Source of the DNA: Methylocystis sp. H62
GTDB taxonomy: Bacteria; Pseudomonadota; Alphaproteobacteria; Rhizobiales; Beijerinckiaceae
Assembly (NCBI RefSeq): GCF_015709515.1
Contig: NZ_JADNQZ010000044.1
Location: forward strand, 1 to 64,000
Direction: 5' to 3'
DNA length: 64,000 bases
Made by a program: the position numbers and the translations under genes. Shown one piece after another: positions 19,149-29,379 of this stretch. The number at the start of each line of letters is the position of its first letter. The first letter of the stretch is position 1. Under the pieces are notes generated by a model that worked only from the letters and a program-made list of their open reading frames with translations, was not told the DNA's origin and did not search any database.

Positions 19149-21212
19149 TCATTCCGCGGCCGTGGCGTGCGGTTCCTCTTCCTCAGCGTCGGGCAGAGCC
19201 GCGTCGTCATCATCGCCGAGAAAATCCGGCAAGGCGTCGCTTTCCTCCGTTTGGACGATTTGCGCGTCGGCCGCCTGCGTTGACGCGCCGCGCAGGGGCT
19301 CGGGCAGCCAGCCGGTTCCCTGAAGCAGGCGCTCCGCTTCGACAGCCATGTCGGATTTTTTCAGATGATCGATCATCTGCGCCGTCGCTTCGCCCTTCGC
19401 TTCGCGCACCGCCGCCAGGATCCGCGCCTTGGTGACCTTGCCGAAATAGCTCTCAACCGTCGGCGTCCAATGCGCGCTCATATCGAGTCCGACATGTTCG
19501 GCCAGTCGATCGGCGTGATCCAGTGGCTTTGAGCGACGTTCGTGTGGAAGCTGCAGCGCGTTGACGCTCTGGCCGACACAAAAGGCGAAAAGCCCGGCCG
19601 TCGACTCGCGATCCGCTTTGACCAGCCAGTCCCAGAGATCGTCCGATTTCTTGGGCAATCGCAATTGCCAATGGCCCTGCGCCTCATCATGTGCCCGCGC
19701 CGTAACGCTATCGGCGAGGCCGGAAGTATAGCCGCCGAGTAGCGCGGATTTGGCGTCGATCTCCACGCAGCCGTCGAAGCGACCGGAAGAGTAAAAGCTC
19801 TTCAGCGCCAGCGCATGGGTCGCCGCGAGAAACGCCGCCTCCGGATCATTGGCGAGGGCGACGCGCAGAGCCAGCGTGCGGTGCGCGGTGAGGTCGCTCA
19901 TCAATCGGTCGGAGAGTTTTGACGAGACTTCCGTCTCGTCCCGGTCGGCCGCGGTTTCATAAGGGTTGCGGACTGCGCCGTCGCCCGCAGGCTTTGGGGC
20001 GACCACAGATCCCCTGGGTTCGCCAGCGGCCGGCGCGCCGGCGGGCTCCTCATCTTCGGGACGGACAAAGCCGCGCTCGACCTTCAGGGTGCCGTCATAG
20101 TCGATGCTGACAAAAATCCCGGCGCGCGGGAGTTCGGTCGGATCGTAGATGGCCGGTCGCTCGTCAACCGCCGCGATTTCCTTTTCGAGTTCCGCGAGCC
20201 TGCGGTCGACCTCTTCGGGAAGATCTTCCGCGCCCTCGTGCTCATCCGACAGCGCGTCATATTCGGCGAGCGCGGCGTCGTAACGCGCCTTCTGCTCCTC
20301 CGAGATCTGCGCAAATGTCGCCGGCAGCCGCCGCAGCCCATTCGTGTGACCATAGGGGAAATCGATCGCGATCTGCGACCATTTCCAGCCTTCGGCGCGC
20401 AGCGCGTCGGCAGCTTCCGCGAGCTTCTCCCGTGCGAGACGGTCGAGCAGCGCCACATCCTGCAGCCAGCCGCCGTGATCCTGCTGGAAGAGATCGCGAA
20501 GGACGACGCCGCCCGCCGCCTCATAGGCTTCAACGCCGACGAAGACCGCGCGCTTGTCACCGGCCTTCACCGCGCCTTCGGTCAGCAGGCGCCGGATCGT
20601 GTAGGGCTCCTTATTGTAGGACCGGCTGAGAGTCTCCCAAACTTCCTCCTGCCGCGCACGGTCGTCGGTGACGCAAAAGGCCATGAGCTGCTCGAGGCTC
20701 AATTCCTCGGCGACGTAAAGGTCGAGCAGTTTCTGGCTCGCCGCCGCGAGTTTCAGTCTCTGTCGCACCACCGGCGCGCCGACGAAAAACCGCGCGGCGA
20801 TCTCGTCAATCGTGACGCCCTGATCCTGCAGATTCTTGAACGCCCGAAACTGATCGAGCGGATGCAGCGCCTGGCGCATCGTATTCTCTGCGAGGGAATC
20901 CTCTTCCTCGATCCCGTCGGTTTTCACGATGCAGGGGACGGGCGCGTTCTTCGCGAGGCGCTTCTGCTTGACGAGCGATTTAAGCGCCGCGAGACGTCGC
21001 CCGCCCGCGCTGACCGCGAATTGCCCTGTTTCGGCGCCCCCGTCGTCCAACACGGGCCGCACGCTCAACGACTGCAGCAGTCCACGCCTTACGATATCCT
21101 CGGCCAGATCCTCGACACTCACCCCCGCCTTGATCCGCCGCACATTCGCATCCGACGCCACAAGCTTGTCGAGCGCGATATCCCGCGCCGCCGTCAGAAC
21201 AATCTTCGCCAT
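19149..21212 (-). CDS. Large ParB/RepB-like partition protein
   Basis: 687 residues. The N-terminal ParB domain shows LDKLVASDANVRR, the arginine patch SAGGRRLAAL and ENTMRQALHPLDQFRAF. A KorB/HTH-like segment follows (VTIDEIAARFFVGAPVVRQRLKLAA). The remaining ~450 residues are acidic and poorly conserved, much longer than chromosomal ParB (about 290). ParB proteins bind parS sites and hydrolyse CTP to segregate DNA; large versions on mobile elements may instead regulate genes. No ParA lies next to it; the only ParA-like gene is the TraL-type one at 57312. The leader carries a conserved stem element and CGGAG. Confidence 0.85.
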   Translation of the reverse strand: MAKIVLTAARDIALDKLVASDANVRRIKAGVSVEDLAEDIVRRGLLQSLSVRPVLDDGGAETGQFAVSAGGRRLAALKSLVKQKRLAKNAPVPCIVKTDGIEEEDSLAENTMRQALHPLDQFRAFKNLQDQGVTIDEIAARFFVGAPVVRQRLKLAAASQKLLDLYVAEELSLEQLMAFCVTDDRARQEEVWETLSRSYNKEPYTIRRLLTEGAVKAGDKRAVFVGVEAYEAAGGVVLRDLFQQDHGGWLQDVALLDRLAREKLAEAADALRAEGWKWSQIAIDFPYGHTNGLRRLPATFAQISEEQKARYDAALAEYDALSDEHEGAEDLPEEVDRRLAELEKEIAAVDERPAIYDPTELPRAGIFVSIDYDGTLKVERGFVRPEDEEPAGAPAAGEPRGSVVAPKPAGDGAVRNPYETAADRDETEVSSKLSDRLMSDLTAHRTLALRVALANDPEAAFLAATHALALKSFYSSGRFDGCVEIDAKSALLGGYTSGLADSVTARAHDEAQGHWQLRLPKKSDDLWDWLVKADRESTAGLFAFCVGQSVNALQLPHERRSKPLDHADRLAEHVGLDMSAHWTPTVESYFGKVTKARILAAVREAKGEATAQMIDHLKKSDMAVEAERLLQGTGWLPEPLRGASTQAADAQIVQTEESDALPDFLGDDDDAALPDAEEEEPHATAAE

Positions 21213-21963: not shown

Positions 21964-22608
21964 ATGGTCGGCAGCGGGCCAAAGCGGTCGCGTAAGGCTA
22001 ATAAAGCGGGGGGTAAGGCTGAGGCGGATCGACGACGCCGGCTCATGGTCGTCACGATCGCTGATCGGCTCGATTCGCCTTATCTTGCAAACCTTGCGAA
22101 CCGACTGATCGCCGAACACGCGGCAAGCGGCTTGTCGAAGCCGGAATTCGCCGAATTCGTCGGCATGTCAGGGTCGCAATTTCGCTATGTGCGTCGCCGG
22201 CTCGGGAACCCGTCCATCACGATGTTGGCGGAAATTTCGAAAAAGCTTCGCGTCCCGCTCTACGAGTTGCTCGAAGCCAAGCCGGTTCGCGATCGTAAGA
22301 ATCCCTCCGGGGCGAAAATGGTCGAGACGATCGGCGCCGTCGTAAACGAGCGCTTCCGCAATAGCGGCCTGACCAAACAGGAATTTGCAAAATTTCTGAA
22401 CGTTTCCCTACCGCAGCTCTACCTCATCACCGATGGCGTATCGAACCCGTCGCTGCTCGTGCTCGTCGAACTCGCGGAACGATTGGACATCAGCTTGTGG
22501 GAATTGCTCGGCGTCGAATCAGCACGCAAACCGGCGAGCGGCGCCAACCGCGCGGCGAAACCAAAAACTTCGCGAGTTGCGCGGCTTCCTGCTCAACGAG
22601 GAGCATAA
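21964..22608 (+). CDS. Transcriptional regulator with two XRE-type HTH domains
   Basis: 214 residues. Two helix-turn-helix units are visible: about 45-90 (GLSKPEFAEFVGMSGSQFRY, then NPSITMLAEISKKLRVPLYELLE) and about 130-180 (GLTKQEFAKFLNVSLPQLYL, then NPSLLVLVELAERLDISLWELLG). The ends are basic (RRRR near 23, KPKTSRVARL at the C-terminus). Duplicated HTH units in one chain suggest binding to an extended asymmetric site as a monomer or a long site as a dimer. It is divergent from the parB-side operon and adjacent to a 16-nt site also found before virB1 and traK, so it is a candidate master regulator of transfer. An internal ATG at 22045 is an alternative start. Confidence 0.8.
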   Translation: MVGSGPKRSRKANKAGGKAEADRRRRLMVVTIADRLDSPYLANLANRLIAEHAASGLSKPEFAEFVGMSGSQFRYVRRRLGNPSITMLAEISKKLRVPLYELLEAKPVRDRKNPSGAKMVETIGAVVNERFRNSGLTKQEFAKFLNVSLPQLYLITDGVSNPSLLVLVELAERLDISLWELLGVESARKPASGANRAAKPKTSRVARLPAQRGA

Positions 22609-22752: not shown

Positions 22753-23676
22753 TCAGCCGCGCGGAGTCCTGTTCCCGAACCAACCCAAGACCGCCGCGAT
22801 CAAGGCGCGGAGGCCCGTCGCATGGGGCGGTGCCTCCTGGGCTGGGGGCACATCCAGGCGATCCAGATACCGCCGAACGTCGAACATCGGGTCGCCGACA
22901 GCCCTCGCCGGATAGTGCGGGCAAGCCTTGCCGTGCCGCCGCGTCAGGCGGTCGGACGGGACGACCGTCCCCAGGTTGGCGTCGTAGGCAAAGTACGCGC
23001 TACGGGGCGGGTCTCCCATCCAGGGGCTCACCAGTTGCACGACCAGGCCCACGGCCGTCGACGCCAGCACGCCGTTCGGCCAGACGACCTGCGGCCTGCT
23101 GCCGGCGACGCCGTACCGCTGGGCCTCAGCCTTCAGTCGTTCATCGGTGACCAGCTGCAGGCATCGCAAGCAGGGCTCGCCGGGCATCGACAACACGACC
23201 TGGCCGCTAACCAGGCTTTGCCCCGAGCTCGGCAACGGTGTTACGTCCATGCCCATATCGATGTAGGGGATCATGAAGCGGCGGCAGAAGGCCTCGAGTT
23301 CGTCCTTCGAGCCGATATGATCGAGGCCGCCGACAATGATGTCGCAGCCCTTCAGAAGGTCACCAACATCCTGCCACTTGGCGCGGCGCATGACGATCCG
23401 CGCGTCCGGGTTCACCGCGCGGATCACCTGTGCGGCGATCTCCACCTTCGGGCGCTCAGCCTTCACGTCCTCCAGGGTGCCGCCGACCAGCCTGTTGAGA
23501 TTGGTCAGGGTGATGATGTCGTCGTCGAGGAGGACGAAGCCGCCGATCCCAAGGTGGGCCAGCTGCTGGGCCACATGCGAGTTGCCGCCGCCCAGTCCGA
23601 CCAGGCCGACGGTCGCCGCCGCCAGCCGCGCGTCACTGTTCGCGCCGAGGAAGCTTTGTCGATCAAGCCAGGTCAT
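22753..23676 (-). CDS. E1-like ThiF-family adenylyltransferase of ubiquitin-like operon
   Basis: A 307-residue enzyme expected to adenylate the C-terminus of the partner ubiquitin-like protein and pass it on as a thioester. The nucleotide-binding loop is GLVGLGGGNSHVAQQL (24-39), followed by LLDDD (49-53) and the Arg-finger region NLNRL (59-63). MPGEPCLRC supplies C169 as candidate catalytic Cys, with C172 and C252 perhaps binding zinc. GVLASTAVGL is the E1 crossover-like helix. The C-terminal ~35 residues are a Pro stretch and a hydrophobic helix (LRALIAAVLGWF), not usual in ThiF. It overlaps the JAMM gene by 14 nt and ends the operon. Confidence 0.9.
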   Translation of the reverse strand: MTWLDRQSFLGANSDARLAAATVGLVGLGGGNSHVAQQLAHLGIGGFVLLDDDIITLTNLNRLVGGTLEDVKAERPKVEIAAQVIRAVNPDARIVMRRAKWQDVGDLLKGCDIIVGGLDHIGSKDELEAFCRRFMIPYIDMGMDVTPLPSSGQSLVSGQVVLSMPGEPCLRCLQLVTDERLKAEAQRYGVAGSRPQVVWPNGVLASTAVGLVVQLVSPWMGDPPRSAYFAYDANLGTVVPSDRLTRRHGKACPHYPARAVGDPMFDVRRYLDRLDVPPAQEAPPHATGLRALIAAVLGWFGNRTPRG

Positions 23677-24178
23677 GGGCCCCCCATTCGCGCTGCATCG
23701 GCGCGTCGATACGCTGGAACTGGTCGATGGTCACCGGCGGCCGGTGGTTGGCCAGCCACAGGAGGCCGTGGGCGGCGTCGTTGCTTAGGACAAGCAGGCC
23801 GTGCGGCATACGCGGCGTGGTTTCGAAGAAACCGGGGACGAAGTCCTTGGCGCTGTTCAAGTCCACGCCGCTGAACCCTGGCTTGCCGTGGCCGCCGTGC
23901 GTGTGGACGTGCAACAGCGCCGCCGCAGGCCGGTAGGCCGACTGCACGGCCTTGCGCATGGCTGCCGAGCCGATCTTGGCTCCGACCTTGCGGTTGACCT
24001 CGTAGTCCTCATCCGCGACCGGCATATAGTCGCGGACCGTTAGAAGCAGGCGGTCGCCGAGGTCGGCGGCGCCGGCCGTGAAGAAGCCCACGCGTTCGTA
24101 GGCGAAGGCGTGCGGCCGATGGAGGTCCTGGCGGACGGCGTCCAGCAGCCGGCCGTCGATCTTCAGATGTACCGTCAT
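23663..24178 (-). CDS. JAMM/MPN metalloprotease (JAB domain) of ubiquitin-like operon
   Basis: 171 residues forming a single JAB domain. The zinc site is complete: E28, then H92-T-H94 in LLHVHTHGGHGKPGFSGVD, with S103 and D106. These proteases cut isopeptide bonds or trim ubiquitin-like precursors. I start it at 24178, where the ATG overlaps the E2 stop as ATGA; the longer frame has no ribosome site. It lies between E2 and E1 in a fully overlapping operon, so it very likely processes the poly-Ubl protein or removes it from targets. Confidence 0.9.
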   Translation of the reverse strand: MTVHLKIDGRLLDAVRQDLHRPHAFAYERVGFFTAGAADLGDRLLLTVRDYMPVADEDYEVNRKVGAKIGSAAMRKAVQSAYRPAAALLHVHTHGGHGKPGFSGVDLNSAKDFVPGFFETTPRMPHGLLVLSNDAAHGLLWLANHRPPVTIDQFQRIDAPMQREWGAHDLA

Positions 24179-24507
24179 TGCAGCGGCCTCAAATGCGCGC
24201 CCAGGATCTCGTCCCAGCCGAGGCCGGGATCGACGCCGTTCCACGACATGGCGTGCCATGGCGCGCCGAGGATGTTGTGCGTGGTCCAGTTCTGGCCGCG
24301 GTTGGGGAAGGGCTTCGACAGGAAAAGGCGGGAGACGTAGCCGCTGTGCTGGCGGGGGCAGAGCAGGCCGTCGACCGTCTCCACCGCGCCCGCGTGCTGG
24401 ACCCGCAACTCCGGAAGATGGACGAGCGGTTGCCCGCCATCTTCGTGGAGTTCGGCCCGACGGCAGATCCGGCGAAGCTTGCGCAGTTCTGACGCCGGGT
24501 CCCTCAC
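24175..24507 (-). CDS. E2-like ubiquitin-conjugating protein (prokaryotic E2 family E)
   Basis: 110 residues. The core DGLLCPRQHSGYVSRLFLS holds the presumed thioester Cys C50 followed by PRQH (H54), and GQNWTTHNILGAPWHAMSW forms the conserved C-terminal part. It starts at a GTG that overlaps the poly-Ubl stop (GTGA), so translation is coupled. No RING or other E3-like gene is present, so transfer to targets would be by E2 itself, as in related bacterial pathways. The short N-terminus, without a clear first helix-strand unit of eukaryotic E2, is typical of this bacterial group. Confidence 0.85.
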   Translation of the reverse strand: MRDPASELRKLRRICRRAELHEDGGQPLVHLPELRVQHAGAVETVDGLLCPRQHSGYVSRLFLSKPFPNRGQNWTTHNILGAPWHAMSWNGVDPGLGWDEILGAHLRPLQ

Positions 24508-25211
24508 GACGAGTGCCCCGCCGGCGGGTGCGAGGAGAACTCCATGCCCTCGCGGATCTTGATGTGCTCGCCCGGCTTCAGCTCGCGGAACTCGCCGTCC
24601 CGCTCAATCAGGTCGAGCAGGTAGCCAGCCGGGGCGGAGAACACCGCGATCAGCTGTTCGGTTGTGTAAACACCCCGTTCCAGCTCGAACGGCGCCTCCT
24701 TGTAGTAGACCGTCACCGTCTTGGGCGGGTTGCGCAGCATCAGCCGCTCCACACCCTTGCCGGCCAGGTCCACCTGGTCGTCGTCGTCGAGGACGACGTC
24801 GCCGTCCTCGTTGTCGAGCACGAGCACCCGCCCATCCTCAACCTTGGCCAGGAACTTGATGTGCTTGGCCGCCAGCTTCGCCTTCGGCCACTTCATCGAG
24901 AGCCCCTCCACGGTGAAGCGGTGGAGGTCATCGCCGCGTGTGACGAAGAAGCGCTCGACGCCTTCCTCGCCCAGGTCGACGGGTTCGGTGGGGCGGATCG
25001 ACTCCAGCTCGCCAGAACGCAGGTGGCGCAGGATGACGAACGCCTCGATCGGATGGGCGCCGGCGGCTTCAGCGATCTGCGCGCCGACCACCGTGCGGTC
25101 GTCGAAACGCACGCGGCGGAACTGGAAGGTTTCGTCACCAAGCTCGACCGAGAAAACGCCGGCGGCGTCTCGGTCGATGGCGCTCTCCTCCTGGGGAATG
25201 AGCTGGGTCAT
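24504..25211 (-). CDS. Poly-ubiquitin-like protein (multiubiquitin family, three beta-grasp units)
   Basis: 235 residues made of three ubiquitin-like repeats: about 18-90, 98-160 and 164-226. Each ends in a similar closing strand (LGEEGVERFFV, LAGKGVERLML, LKPGEHIKIREGMEF). The chain ends PPAGHSS, with no terminal Gly-Gly. It starts the four-gene operon; start 25211 has GAGGTG upstream. Encoded with E1, E2 and JAMM it is the presumed modifier. Whether it is used whole, trimmed after the third repeat or polymerised cannot be seen. The region looks richer in GCC/GTC codons than its flanks, suggesting separate acquisition; I did not compute this. Confidence 0.88.
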   Translation of the reverse strand: MTQLIPQEESAIDRDAAGVFSVELGDETFQFRRVRFDDRTVVGAQIAEAAGAHPIEAFVILRHLRSGELESIRPTEPVDLGEEGVERFFVTRGDDLHRFTVEGLSMKWPKAKLAAKHIKFLAKVEDGRVLVLDNEDGDVVLDDDDQVDLAGKGVERLMLRNPPKTVTVYYKEAPFELERGVYTTEQLIAVFSAPAGYLLDLIERDGEFRELKPGEHIKIREGMEFSSHPPAGHSS

Positions 25212-25301
25212 GGGGTGGTTCACCTCGGTCTTGGGTTCAGGGCCAACGCCGGCCCGCGACAATGGTGATGACAGCAATTCCTCACGGAGTCAATATAACG
25301 C

Positions 25302-25330
25302 ACTATCGCTGGCGTTTATGTTTGTGTAAA
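25302..25330 (-). promoter_or_regulatory. Predicted promoter of the ubiquitin-like operon
   Basis: On the minus strand TTTACA (25330-25325), a 17-nt spacer and GATAGT (25307-25302) form a sigma70-like promoter. Transcription would begin near 25295, leaving a leader of about 84 nt before the ATG at 25211. Repeats of ATGACAGC (25268-25275) and its inverse GCTGTCAT (25370-25377) flank both promoters and may be binding half-sites for the divergent regulator. Confidence 0.45.
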
Positions 25331-25351
25331 GCACATTAGATGTCAGCTCCA

Positions 25352-25380
25352 TTGACACAGCTTCGCAAAGCTGTCATTAT
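25352..25380 (+). promoter_or_regulatory. Promoter with operator in its spacer, giving a likely leaderless mRNA
   Basis: A consensus -35 TTGACA (25352-25357), exactly 17 nt, and -10 CATTAT (25375-25380). The spacer is filled by the palindrome ACAGCTT-CGCA-AAGCTGT (25357-25374). The XRE start codon begins at 25387, seven nt after the -10, so transcription probably starts at the ATG itself. No ribosome site precedes the ATG, which agrees. Confidence 0.65.
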
Positions 25381-25386
25381 GTTTGC

Positions 25387-25713
25387 ATGGACGACATGGA
25401 AATCTACCGGCAGCTTGGCAAAAACGTCGCACGCCTACGGAACGAGAGGGGCAGCACTCAGGCCGAGATCGCCGCGCAGATCGGGCTGACCCGCGCGTCG
25501 CTCGCCAATATCGAAACCGGTCGCCAGAAGGTCCTGATGCACCACGTCTTCCGCCTGGCCAACGCGCTCGACTGCGCCTCCATCATCGAACTCGTGCCCG
25601 CGAGCTTTGATTTCTCCGACGACGTCCAGCCGATCACCACCCACGGCAGTCCACTCAGCCAGCAGCAGCATGCGCTGGTGCAGCGGTTCGTTCAGTCAGC
25701 CGGAAAGCGCTGA
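25387..25713 (+). CDS. XRE-family repressor of the ImmA/exonuclease unit
   Basis: A 108-residue regulator. The HTH covers about residues 8-62 (LRNERGSTQAEIAAQIGLTRASLANIETGRQ), followed by a short C-terminal arm without an enzymatic domain. It is the first gene of a plus-strand unit with ImmA/IrrE 2 nt downstream. XRE/ImmA pairs commonly act as a repressor and the protease that cleaves it under stress. The palindrome inside its promoter implies autoregulation, and the divergent ubiquitin-like operon could be under the same control. Confidence 0.85.
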   Translation: MDDMEIYRQLGKNVARLRNERGSTQAEIAAQIGLTRASLANIETGRQKVLMHHVFRLANALDCASIIELVPASFDFSDDVQPITTHGSPLSQQQHALVQRFVQSAGKR

Positions 25714-25715
25714 CC

Positions 25716-26228
25716 ATGGCGGACAAGGCCAAGGCCCGCGCGGCGGCGCTCCGACTCATCGAAGAACACGGTGTGCGCGCCGCGCCTGTACCGCTTGATC
25801 GCATCATACGGGCGGCCGGCGTGGTCGTGCAGTATGGGCCTTTCGATGGAGAACTTTCGGGGATGGCCTTCATCAAGGACGGCCAGCCGATGATCGGCGT
25901 GAACTCTCTTCACGCCTCGACCCGCCAGAGGTTCACCCTGGCGCACGAGCTTGGACACATCCTCCTCCACCGACCTGTGCTCGAGGCCAGCGGCGTGCAT
26001 GTCGACAAGGGGAGCCTGCGGCGCGACAGCTTGGCCTCTGAGGGCGTCGATGATCAGGAGATTGAGGCTAATAACTTCGCGGCCGAACTCCTGATGCCCG
26101 AGCCGCTACTCGCCGCCGCCCTCGATGGCCACAACCTCGACTTCGAAGACGAGGAGGCGGTCCAGGCCCTGGCTAAGAAGTTCAAGGTCAGCACCATGGC
26201 GCTGCAATTCCGAGTTCAGCGGATCTAA
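25716..26228 (+). CDS. ImmA/IrrE-family metallopeptidase
   Basis: 170 residues. The zinc protease motif HELGH (77-81) and downstream Glu in EIEANNFAAELLMP (about 115-128) are intact, as in phage ImmA and Deinococcus IrrE. It has no signal peptide. GGAAAGCG precedes the ATG and the gene starts 2 nt after the XRE stop. Its likely substrate is the XRE partner; cleavage would release the promoter at 25352 and perhaps the divergent ubiquitin-like operon. Confidence 0.9.
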   Translation: MADKAKARAAALRLIEEHGVRAAPVPLDRIIRAAGVVVQYGPFDGELSGMAFIKDGQPMIGVNSLHASTRQRFTLAHELGHILLHRPVLEASGVHVDKGSLRRDSLASEGVDDQEIEANNFAAELLMPEPLLAAALDGHNLDFEDEEAVQALAKKFKVSTMALQFRVQRI

Positions 26229-26239
26229 AGGGTGGACCA

Positions 26240-27631
26240 ATGGGCTTCGTGATCTATGACCTTGAGACCACAGGCCTCAAAAAGCGCTTCGACCAAATCA
26301 TACAGTTCGCCGCGGTCCGGACGGACGAGAGCCTTGCCGTGGTCGAGCGGGTCGAGTTCGAGGGCCGCCTTCGGCCGCACATTCTTCCCTCGCCCGGCGC
26401 CCTTCACATTACCGGGGCCCGCTACGGTGATCTGATCGACCCGCTGCGTCCGTCATATGACGCCATGATGGGCAGCATCCACGAGACCCTGATACGTTGG
26501 ACACCTTCGATGTTCATCGGCTTTAACTCGGTCGGTTACGACGACGAGGTGTTGCGCCAGGCGCTTTATGAGGCCCTACGACCGCCGATCTTCATCACCA
26601 ACATGAAGGGCAACTCGCGCGGCGATCTGCTCAAGCTCGCCCGCGTGGTCGGGACGCTCCGACCCGATGTCTTGAAGTGCGCTCGTGACGCGGATGGCCG
26701 CCGGGTCTTCCGGCTGGCCGAGCTTGCTCGGGCGAATGGGATCGATCCCGGCCGATCCCATACCGCCGACGCCGACGTGGCGACGACCCTGGCGCTCTGC
26801 CAGCTGATCGCCGCCAAGGCGCCGGTTCTCTGGTCGAGCTTCATGCGTTTCTCTAACAAGGCGGCCGTCATTGAGTTCATCGCCGAACACGACGCCTTCG
26901 CGGCGTTCGAGTTCACCGGCGGGCGGCAGGACGTTCATCCTGTGACGGCCATCGGCTTTAAGCCGGCCGACAAGAACGTGCGCTACTGCCTGGATCTGAC
27001 GGCCGACCACAACACCTTGCGGCGAATGACGGCGGACGAGTTGCTGGCCGAAGTGTCGAAGCGCGAAGGGCCGATCCGCCGCCTGAAGGCGAACGCTTCA
27101 CCGATCGTCACCGAGCTTTGGGAATTGGACGCCGAGTTGCTCGGGGATTTCACCGAGGCGGACCTCGAGGCGACCGCCGCCGCCGTTCGCGGCGACGAGA
27201 ACTTCGTTCGTAGACTTGTTGCCGCCGCCATTGCTTCGGAACCCACCTGGTCGAAGTCGAGCTACGTCGAGCTTCAAATCTACGACGACTTCATCGAGGA
27301 CCACGACGAAGGCGTCTGCCGACGCTTCCACGCCGCGCCGTGGCCCGACCGCCTCGCCATCATCGACCGCTTCCAAGACCCTCGGCTGAAAAAGCTTGCG
27401 CGTCGGCTCATCTACTTCGAACGTCCCGATCTGCTGGACGCCGACATGCGTGGGCGGATGGACTTGGCCGTCTGGGGCCGCCTCAGGGGCCAGGAGCCGA
27501 ACGCCCCAGGTCGCACCTTCGCCGCGACACTTCACGAGCTCGACGCGCTGCAGGCCGAGGTCGTGACGATTGATCCCTCGCTGCGGAGCTACCGGGCCTA
27601 TCTGCAGGCGCAGCTGGTCGCCGCCGCGTGA
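26240..27631 (+). CDS. SbcB-like 3'-5' exonuclease (DEDDh family)
   Basis: 463 residues, close to the length of exonuclease I (475). ExoI motif YDLETTG (D7, E9), ExoII-like FIGFNSVGYDDEVLRQ (about 93-106) and the DEDDh motif HTADADVATTL (H174, D179) are all present. The C-terminal part resembles the exonuclease I extension (YVELQIYDDFIEDHDEG). Such enzymes degrade ssDNA from the 3' end. AAAGGGTGG precedes the ATG, 11 nt after the ImmA stop, so it belongs to the XRE-ImmA unit and is its likely effector. A housekeeping sbcB is unlikely here given the context. Confidence 0.88.
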   Translation: MGFVIYDLETTGLKKRFDQIIQFAAVRTDESLAVVERVEFEGRLRPHILPSPGALHITGARYGDLIDPLRPSYDAMMGSIHETLIRWTPSMFIGFNSVGYDDEVLRQALYEALRPPIFITNMKGNSRGDLLKLARVVGTLRPDVLKCARDADGRRVFRLAELARANGIDPGRSHTADADVATTLALCQLIAAKAPVLWSSFMRFSNKAAVIEFIAEHDAFAAFEFTGGRQDVHPVTAIGFKPADKNVRYCLDLTADHNTLRRMTADELLAEVSKREGPIRRLKANASPIVTELWELDAELLGDFTEADLEATAAAVRGDENFVRRLVAAAIASEPTWSKSSYVELQIYDDFIEDHDEGVCRRFHAAPWPDRLAIIDRFQDPRLKKLARRLIYFERPDLLDADMRGRMDLAVWGRLRGQEPNAPGRTFAATLHELDALQAEVVTIDPSLRSYRAYLQAQLVAAA

Positions 27632-27904: not shown

Positions 27905-28813
27905 TCATTCCTCGATTATGCGTTTTAGGGCTTCGGCGCGATCCCCAGCCACGGTCTTGTAGAGCTTGTCGAAGTCCTGACCCTTCGCGACGCAGTAGAG
28001 GATTCGAACCGTGATTTCAGGGTGCGCGGCGCGCAGTTCACGTGCGGCCTTGAGGCCCGGCCCATCGTTGTCGGCATAGATCGTGAGCCTCGTCACGTCG
28101 TTGGGCCAATTGACGACGCCGAAGCGGTCGGCGCCAAGCGTCGCCCATACAGGCTCGTCGAATAGCAATTGCGCGGCCCACGCCTTCTCGAAACCCTCGG
28201 CGATGCCAAGCGCGAGAGCGGCCGGTGCGAGGCGGAGCATGGACGCGCCGAGCGGGCCGATCGCACGCCTGGGATATTCAACGTCGGCTTTGCGCCGGCC
28301 GCACGGATGCAGGAAGGTGAGTTGAACGCCAATGATTTCGCGCGTCGGCGCCTGGACGGCGGAAACAAGACAGGGCAGGGCGCTTCGCGGCCGCTCTTTG
28401 TCGTAGCGATAGGAGGGTAGGAAGCGGATTGACGCCGGCGGCGTGGTCGGTAGACCGCGCTCCGCCAAGAAGCCCTCGGCGATCGTCCCCTTAACGGACA
28501 CCGCCGATTGCCAGATTCGGCGCGCATAGGCGCTCGTGGTTTTCGGCGCCGGCTTGTCCTTGAGCGGCGGTCGATCTGTGATTTCGGCGCGCGCGTTCAG
28601 GTCAACGGCGTTGATGGCGGCGATAACATCGCGCGGATCACAGCCAGCGAAACAATGCAGGATCACGCCCTTGTCGCCGTTGTTGACGCTGAGCGAGGGC
28701 CGTCGATCGCCGCGTTGCTTTCCATGAGTCTTCACCGGACAATGGCAGAGATAGCCACGTCCCTCGCGTCGCCCGCCCAGGAGCTGAGCGACGGCATCGG
28801 CGCTTACCAGCAT
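27905..28813 (-). CDS. Second Toprim-domain protein (primase-like, with zinc-binding N-terminus)
   Basis: 302 residues. The N-terminus resembles a CHC2-type zinc ribbon (GYLCHCPVKTHGKQ, then VILHCFAGCD), the middle is the plasmid primase-like linker, and the Toprim domain shows GIAEGFEKAW and IYADNDGPGLKAARELR. It differs from the copy at 12959, which lacks the zinc cysteines. The start at 28813 lies 3 nt after the stop of the thermonuclease gene; a longer frame reaches 28888. It may initiate priming on the transferred strand. It closes a run of minus-strand genes beginning at 31898. Confidence 0.8.
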   Translation of the reverse strand: MLVSADAVAQLLGGRREGRGYLCHCPVKTHGKQRGDRRPSLSVNNGDKGVILHCFAGCDPRDVIAAINAVDLNARAEITDRPPLKDKPAPKTTSAYARRIWQSAVSVKGTIAEGFLAERGLPTTPPASIRFLPSYRYDKERPRSALPCLVSAVQAPTREIIGVQLTFLHPCGRRKADVEYPRRAIGPLGASMLRLAPAALALGIAEGFEKAWAAQLLFDEPVWATLGADRFGVVNWPNDVTRLTIYADNDGPGLKAARELRAAHPEITVRILYCVAKGQDFDKLYKTVAGDRAEALKRIIEE

Positions 28814-28815
28814 CG

Positions 28816-29379
28816 CTATCGCGGTCGAGCGCCGCGCGCCGCTTCGATGAGGATCTTCGACGGGTGGGGTAGGTCGGCCGCAGCCCAAAGGCCACGCTTT
28901 GCTTTCGACGCCTCGCGCTCGGCGACGGCGTATTCGAATTTCGTCGCTTTGCCGGCGGCGTCAGTCGCCGCGAAGGCGAAGCCCTGCGTGATAAGCACGG
29001 TGCCGAGGTCGAGCGTATTCCTTCCGATATGGACGGCGCAAACCGAGAAGATGACTGGTGGCGCGCCAGCCCGCGCAATAGCAGTGCATCGAGGCTTCGC
29101 GTCGCGAACGATCGCAGCGAGATAGGCGACCGATGCCTCCCCACAATCGGTGCGGACCTTGGCCGAGTTCGTGAAAAACGTCCCGCGAATACAGCTCTGA
29201 ACGCCATAGAGCCGAAAGGTCTGACCGTTGGCGGACCAAGTGTCGCCGGTCTGGAAGGTAACGCCGGATTGCGGGAAATTGAACACTGGCAGCGCACTCA
29301 CCGTTTGCGTCTGTGCGCTGGCGAGCAAGGGGAGCGCCGTCGATGCGACGATGAGGGCGAGTCGTGCTGCGGCGCGCAT
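28816..29379 (-). CDS. Exported thermonuclease-like (SNase) protein
   Basis: 187 residues with a signal peptide (ARLALIVASTALPLLASA). The SNase-like fold shows GDTWSANGQTFRLYGVQ and the C-terminal signature YAVAEREASKAKRGLWA. The catalytic pattern is incomplete compared with staphylococcal nuclease: I cannot place both Arg residues, so activity is uncertain. A GTG at 29391 overlapping the upstream stop is an alternative start. It belongs to a cluster of secreted proteins facing the T4SS genes and may act in the periplasm during conjugation. Confidence 0.75.
   Translation of the reverse strand: MRAAARLALIVASTALPLLASAQTQTVSALPVFNFPQSGVTFQTGDTWSANGQTFRLYGVQSCIRGTFFTNSAKVRTDCGEASVAYLAAIVRDAKPRCTAIARAGAPPVIFSVCAVHIGRNTLDLGTVLITQGFAFAATDAAGKATKFEYAVAEREASKAKRGLWAAADLPHPSKILIEAARGARPR

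Follow-up and report, generated by a model that had tools for sequence, protein, structure and literature searches.

A plasmid-type locus in Methylocystis pairs a Bub-type operon with a putative portable CapH-CapP-exonuclease immune controller

RESULTS

Seven genes flank a 175-nt divergent region

The stretch analyzed here (the window) comprises positions 1 to 64,000 of contig NZ_JADNQZ010000044.1 from Methylocystis sp. H62 (assembly GCF_015709515.1), and the locus under study, at positions 22753 to 27631, consists of seven intact genes flanking a 175-nt gap, with both halves present (Table 1). Genes for a multi-ubiquitin-like (multi-Ubl) protein, an E2-like protein, a JAB peptidase, and an E1-like enzyme lie on the minus strand, and genes for an XRE repressor, an ImmA-type M78 peptidase, and an exonuclease lie on the plus strand. 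An initial annotation made from the sequence had proposed that the two halves may form one composite defense system, driven from a divergent promoter region and perhaps released when ImmA cuts the repressor. The seven genes and the divergent region were confirmed, and the gene identities proposed at that time were supported.

Table 1. Features of the locus and the evidence for each (positions in the window)
Feature	Position	Strand	Evidence or remark
E1-like ThiF adenylyltransferase	22753..23676	-	PF00899, 4.1e-30; BubCD match
JAB/JAMM-type peptidase	23663..24178 (annotated start)	-	JAMM residues; BubCD profile match
E2-like (UEV-like) protein	24175..24507	-	
Multi-Ubl protein	24504..25211 (annotated start)	-	PF14452, 1.5e-29, three stretches
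Divergent promoter/operator region, 175 nt	25212..25386	.	predicted promoter-like sites, plus strand 25352-25380, minus strand 25330-25302
Operator-like half-site TTATGTTTG	25316..25324	+	exact direct repeat; within spacer of Ubl-side promoter-like site
Second TTATGTTTG copy, operator-like	25377..25385	+	exact direct repeat; overlaps capH-side -10
CapH-like XRE repressor, 108 aa	25387..25713	+	HTH_3, 1.4e-10; PADLOC capH, 7.2e-10
CapP-like M78 metallopeptidase, short form, 170 aa, no C-terminal domain	25716..26228	+	PF06114, 2.7e-23; PADLOC capP, 1.9e-34
ExoI (SbcB)-like DEDDh exonuclease, 463 aa	26240..27631	+	PF08411, PF00929; PADLOC RTasSbcB, 3e-92

The XRE and M78 genes have the layout of a CapH+CapP controller, in which the genes for a repressor and an M78 protease stand divergent from an immune-type operon, and the PADLOC matches supported by family the earlier view of the pair as a repressor and a repressor-cutting protease. 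This locus differs from the described controller in that its CapP covers only positions 3 to 150 of the 242-position PADLOC capP model, leaving the C-terminal part of the model unmatched, and in that a third, ExoI-like gene comes after CapP. CapH+CapP, CapW, and CapK+CapS are described as controllers of bacterial immune operons that respond to DNA damage or single-stranded DNA (ssDNA) (PMC13373217), and CapP is described as being activated by ssDNA to cleave CapH (PMC13373217, PMC10904395).

The predicted structure of the exonuclease (predicted local distance difference test score, 93.2) resembled Escherichia coli ExoI (SbcB) bound to dA16 (4js4) over its whole length, with a template modeling score of 0.87 and a DEDDh site whose catalytic residues were invariant in 30 of 30 aligned sequences. 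The likeness has its limits, in that identity in the fold alignment was 23%, the window gene sits in a regulatory operon, and the score of 185.7 fell short of the NCBIfam exodeoxyribonuclease I equivalog cutoff of 260. DEDDh relatives found by the fold search included TREX1. Despite the match to the PADLOC RTasSbcB profile, no reverse transcriptase was found among the seven genes (at other loci, only the neighbors of representatives were scanned). Since Caulobacter is described as lacking sbcB (PMC1839093) and since the only match to this exonuclease in the window's genome was its own gene, the cassette exonuclease may be the only ExoI of the cell.

Judged by its sequence matches, Bub-type (bacterial ubiquitination-like) operon is the most fitting name for the minus-strand half. 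The multi-Ubl protein, whose longest reading begins at a TTG at 25277, matched multi-ubiquitin proteins in the PDB (9d59, 8.1e-26; 8u38, 8.1e-18). Residues 20 to 179 of the E1 aligned to residues 187 to 352 of Citrobacter BubCD (8.5e-14), and 40 E1/ThiF-type chains were matched among the PDB sequences, the ThiF match being slightly better than the BubCD match. The JAB protein, with an open frame that extends beyond the annotated start to 24259, had no Pfam match; its JAMM residues were invariant in 12 of 12 aligned sequences, and its profile matched residues 9 to 142 of Citrobacter BubCD (8.3e-7). The E2-like protein matched nothing in Pfam, NCBIfam, or the PDB sequences, and its model gave no significant Foldseek match; on realignment, the BubCD-BubB entry chain ranked first, with weak fold likeness. 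The JAB and E1 proteins are encoded by separate genes here, whereas they form one chain in Citrobacter BubCD, and the controller here, unlike that of described Bub operons, carries an exonuclease. CapH+CapP next to Bub has already been reported: 219 of 544 Bub operons are given as associated with CapW or CapH+CapP in a paper on CapK+CapS (EMBO J 2026, PMC13373217), so the initial statement that no described system has this combination does not hold for that pairing. According to the same paper, protection against phage by Bub operons has not been shown so far.

CapH, CapP, and the exonuclease form the tightest unit

Searches of GTDB genomes with five exonucleases from such three-gene CapH-CapP-exonuclease units (cassettes) gave 213 confirmed relatives, of which the best 80 were kept. 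CapH and CapP genes lay directly upstream, on the same strand, at 65 of these 80 loci, a fraction that overstates linkage for the wider exonuclease family because the loci were drawn by similarity to the five cassette exonucleases. Together with five plasmid loci, the 65 GTDB loci made 70 cassettes, and removal of 10 near-copies (at least 95% identical) left 60; locus genes were called with a home-made caller, and a 3-kb locus (L075) in which no CapP or CapH was seen was excluded from the neighborhood analysis. Over the 60 loci, the distance correlation was 0.88 between exonuclease and CapP and also 0.88 between exonuclease and CapH. In subsets of Bub loci, the exonuclease correlated with E1 at 0.61 (18 loci), with Ubl at 0.86 (14 loci), and with JAB at 0.77 (14 loci), versus 0.91, 0.90, and 0.94, respectively, with CapP on the same loci; the corresponding values for CapP against E1, Ubl, and JAB were 0.67, 0.91, and 0.83. 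CapH, CapP, and the exonuclease are therefore the tightest unit, although the Ubl follows them almost as closely at Bub loci. At two loci, L066 and L072, exonuclease relatives without CapH and CapP were seen downstream of genes with a serine recombinase-like start, as read by eye.

The cassette faces many different outputs

Ten output classes were found facing the 60 dereplicated cassettes, of which 20 faced Bub-type operons, 10 Bil-type, 18 CD-NTase or cyclic oligonucleotide-based antiphage signaling system (CBASS)-type, 4 TIR, and 8 others. The Bub-type group comprised 17 multi-Ubl operons and 3 DUF6791-E1 Ubl operons, some of them (L014, L032, and L055) labeled by their E1, JAB, or E2 clusters. 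All 10 Bil-type outputs were DUF7665 operons; the Bil label rests on PADLOC for one representative (L022), whose Ubl and E1 were scored by the BilA and BilD models, and on the JAB cluster for L041 and L043. Type III CBASS accounted for 8 (TRIP13, HORMA, CD-NTase, and NucC in the representative; L080 by its first gene), type II CBASS with patatin, a DncV-like protein, and an E1-E2 protein for 5, and other CD-NTase operons for 5. The remainder were ThsB-like TIR outputs (4, three by cluster membership), E2-E1-JAB fusion operons (4), and a DUF3892 group (4, labeled by small proteins). In general, output identity was assigned by Pfam and PADLOC on representatives and by sequence cluster for the remaining loci; a working label of "MBL" for the E2A/E1/JAB type was dropped, as Pfam was silent on the first gene. 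On the exonuclease tree (like the CapP tree, a quick tree without bootstrap), output type needed 23 changes, against a floor of 9 and a shuffled mean of 39.3. This indicated that outputs change often, yet not at random.

Two side observations concern the outputs themselves. A protein of 66 to 103 aa (L044, 6730-6951, and cluster C3, with 16 loci) opens several CBASS-type and other cassette-facing outputs and has a DUF2188 domain in the one protein scanned. On plasmids of rhizobia and Bosea, pairs of a UvrD-type helicase and a PD-(D/E)XK nuclease, AddAB-like by annotation, adjoin Bub- or Bil-type operons (L003, 1-4405; L004, 1-3970; L007, 10661-16491).

The divergent region contains a shared candidate operator motif

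One promoter-like site per strand was predicted in the 175-nt region, and an exact copy of TTATGTTTG lies at each of them. Among the 60 cassette intergenic regions, ATGTTTG/CAAACAT occurred in 35, compared to 3.3 expected from dinucleotide shuffling, and AAGCACA/TGTGCTT occurred in 31, compared to 1.8 expected, although both counts are inflated by kinship of the loci. Both motifs occur ahead of differing outputs. A search for the best palindrome in each intergenic region did not rise above shuffles in many regions, and the k-mer count was clearer. The shared regulation of the two halves that had been proposed is thus supported at the level of the motif only.

Multi-Ubl loci rarely contain the exonuclease

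In a sample of 397 genomes of the order, Multi_ubiq was found in 33 and an exonuclease match (E <= 1e-120) in 5, and only the window's own genome had both; of the 5, three (G000, G361, and G575) had the cassette and two (G609 and G450) did not. In a sample of 385 genomes of the class, Multi_ubiq was found in 12 and exonuclease matches (E <= 1e-40) in 27, and the cassette was present in 4 of the 5 genomes with a match above 470 bits. Forty-five Multi_ubiq loci from 44 genomes were then read, three of which (L245, L310, and L311) score below the Pfam cutoff. The exonuclease was present at 2 of the 45; CapP of at least 150 bits without the exonuclease was found at 12 (including L194, at a contig end), and an M78-UvrD-type fusion protein was found instead at 7. 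At L194, L291, and L298, an exonuclease could have been missed because the contig is short or ends there. In genome G341, the cassette accompanies a Bub-type operon. In G323, a multi-Ubl gene adjoins a long CapP that has no exonuclease with it, and a separate contig bears an exonuclease cassette of the kind that faces type III CBASS in L044.

A dedicated seven-gene Ubl/exonuclease system was rejected, given one genome in 397 with both, 2 multi-Ubl loci in 45, and a cassette that faces other outputs. The composite system of the initial annotation consequently found no support, the cassette also facing Bil-, CBASS-, and TIR-type operons. In terms of the co-occurrence raised there, the two halves rarely occur together in related genomes, and an absence of shared regulation was not what the intergenic regions pointed to.

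As a separate observation, the fusion loci (L279, L280, L281, L283, L293, L295, and L241) have open reading frames of about 1120 to 1150 aa with an ImmA-type M78 peptidase in front, beside multi-Ubl genes. In the two scanned by Pfam (L281 and L295), the peptidase shares one polypeptide with a UvrD helicase and a PD-(D/E)XK nuclease, so that an M78 protease is once more tied to a DNA-processing enzyme.

Cassette CapP proteins are short

All 60 cassette CapP proteins have 86 to 104 aa beyond HEXXH, compared to 167 to 216 residues in all 24 long CapP proteins, near none of which an exonuclease was found (24 of 24; two of those contigs end 503 and 707 nt downstream). A profile of five cassette CapP proteins matched CapP (7t5t) and IrrE (3dte) in their N-terminal parts, and its match to IrrE/PprI structures ended at chain residues 174 to 182, near the HTH/GAF boundary of PprI at 176/177 (PMC10904395), with a possible offset in residue numbering. 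In Deinococcus, PprI (IrrE) is, like CapP, an M78 protease that is activated by ssDNA and cuts a repressor, DdrO; without its GAF-like domain, basal cleavage is reported to be kept, but ssDNA binding and ssDNA-stimulated cleavage are lost (PMC10904395). The cassette CapP proteins (60 of 60) stop short of the C-terminal region on which activation of PprI by ssDNA depends, and the window CapP differs from PprI in ending ahead of the GAF-like domain. A strict rule that a short CapP needs the exonuclease was rejected, as it is broken by L192, L193, L195, and L304; L194 could not be judged, its contig ending 77 nt past CapP.

Setting of the locus

Copies of the exonuclease with 100% identity occur in Methylocystis sp. 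L43 and on plasmid unnamed2 of M. rosea BRCS1; on that plasmid, the same genes are found close to genes for type IV secretion. In the window, ParB-like and DUF7146/Toprim proteins stand on either side of the locus (19149-21212 and 27905-28888), which is consistent with a plasmid backbone; the ParB-like protein scored below the Pfam cutoff and is annotated as ParB/RepB/Spo0J on the M. rosea plasmid. A protein with one or more HTH_3-type domains (21964-22608) is convergent with the E1 gene.

DISCUSSION

The exonuclease belongs with the controller, because of its linkage to CapH and CapP, its codivergence with them, the changing outputs, and the presence of the cassette at only 2 of 45 multi-Ubl loci. 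What had been called a composite system represents one among the several outputs that a portable switch can have. That relatives of the cassette face so many immune operons suggests a portable DNA-triggered switch with its own exonuclease. Our preferred reading, to which we give somewhat less than even odds (about 0.45), is that a plasmid Bub-type operon is held under a portable CapH-CapP-ExoI cassette that is triggered by ssDNA, with the exonuclease acting on the ssDNA signal, most likely as both its reader and its eraser. At rest, CapH would shut both divergent promoters through ATGTTTG-type sites in the 175-nt region. Upon phage attack, DNA damage, or entry of DNA, ssDNA would bring about cleavage of CapH by CapP and thereby induce both the Ubl pathway and the cassette; repression, cleavage, and the ssDNA trigger at this locus, as well as the role of the exonuclease, are what we infer. 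A protease without a PprI-like sensor region and an ExoI-like gene in the same operon suggest that ssDNA is encountered by the exonuclease. It would thus be part of the switch, most likely the separate ssDNA-reading partner of a CapP without a sensor-type domain, and its digestion of the strand would erase the signal, making induction dose limited and self-ending. The specific version, in which an ExoI-derived protein at an ssDNA 3' end activates the sensorless CapP to cut CapH until digestion ends the signal, making the cassette a self-limiting ssDNA dosimeter, is tentative and, taken by itself, somewhat unlikely.

Several observations weigh against this preferred reading, in addition to the biased sampling and the kinship of loci mentioned above. 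Among the best 80 exonuclease loci, 3 had CapP only and 12 had neither CapH nor CapP, and in the two even genome samples, 8 genomes had a match that reached at least 470 bits, of which 5 carried the cassette and G229, G609, and G450 did not. Output types cluster on the exonuclease tree, and in Bub loci the cassette and Ubl largely travel together (0.86 for the exonuclease with Ubl versus 0.90 with CapP). No CapP-exonuclease fusion was present among the 120 homologues listed of 789. Short CapP with a cassette-like CapH occurred without the exonuclease at the four loci that broke the strict rule; on the CapP tree, L192, L193, and L195 branch apart from the clade that is otherwise linked to the exonuclease, and L304 branches within it. 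In the class sample, the exonuclease accompanied 3 of the 48 hits whose profile match was short, most of the others being without a cassette-like CapH.

It is also possible, if rather doubtful, that the exonuclease serves as a brake only, with CapP sensing ssDNA alone and the induced ExoI degrading that ssDNA, so that induction would have a threshold and the switch would be reset. TREX1, one of its DEDDh relatives, restrains cGAS in mammals, and linkage to the controller and not to one output, together with the retention of all active-site residues, would fit such a role. A precedent exists in DRT9, whose poly-dA is described as being neutralized and kept from toxicity by host ExoI (PMC12483538; echoed in PMC13174585), and a DRT9 plasmid could not be introduced into a strain without sbcB (PMC12483538). 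There, an ssDNA exonuclease limits an ssDNA-driven defense, although the enzyme is a housekeeping enzyme of the host, outside the defense locus. A brake does not account for the sensing of ssDNA by a CapP that lacks the sensor-type C-terminal region. The model of the initial annotation, with the exonuclease as a second effector that destroys incoming ssDNA in parallel with Ubl conjugation, appears unlikely. Should CapH repress both promoters, the two arms would be coinduced; phage or conjugating DNA could be open to damage by an ssDNA exonuclease; and the cassette and Ubl diverge largely together in Bub loci. However, the exonuclease is kept with CapH and CapP before varied outputs, among them CBASS and TIR operons, which have effectors of their own, and it was not seen at 43 of the 45 multi-Ubl loci (three of the 43 at contig ends).

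ImmR-ImmA pairs control integrative elements, in which short ImmA proteins are the usual form, and a plasmid carries the same locus next to genes for type IV secretion. The cassette might by analogy answer another cue, such as conjugative entry or plasmid state, with the exonuclease serving in plasmid processing. We consider this quite improbable, as the divergent neighbors include known immune operons and as some cassettes (L028, L039, and L073) lie on contigs of at least 1.7 Mb that are probably chromosomal. Defense genes cluster, and the locus might be a chance neighborhood within a defense island; the same order and strand of the three genes at 65 of 80 loci and their distance correlations of 0.88 make this very improbable indeed.

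The regulatory idea of the initial annotation is plausible, and a circuit in which a protease cuts a repressor to release a Ubl operon is of an already known kind, because Bub with CapH+CapP, and CapP cutting CapH, are reported in PMC13373217. Within the literature reached, what looks new is an interchangeable controller of immune operons made up of three genes, CapH-CapP-ExoI. No report of an exonuclease as a partner of CapH and CapP was found in the titles and abstract beginnings of the open-license PMC papers examined, and the word "exonuclease" does not occur in the text of PMC13373217.

The reader and the brake make opposite predictions for removal of the exonuclease, namely, no induction and overinduction. 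If the preferred reading is true, the cassette would show how a trigger is read and turned off across ubiquitin-like, CBASS, and TIR-type outputs. Moreover, if the exonuclease is both reader and eraser, the cassette would be a dosimeter into which Bub, Bil, CBASS, and TIR-type systems plug, and a counterpart in logic of TREX1 upstream of cGAS. A nuclease adjoining a defense operon may then be part of the switch and not a weapon.

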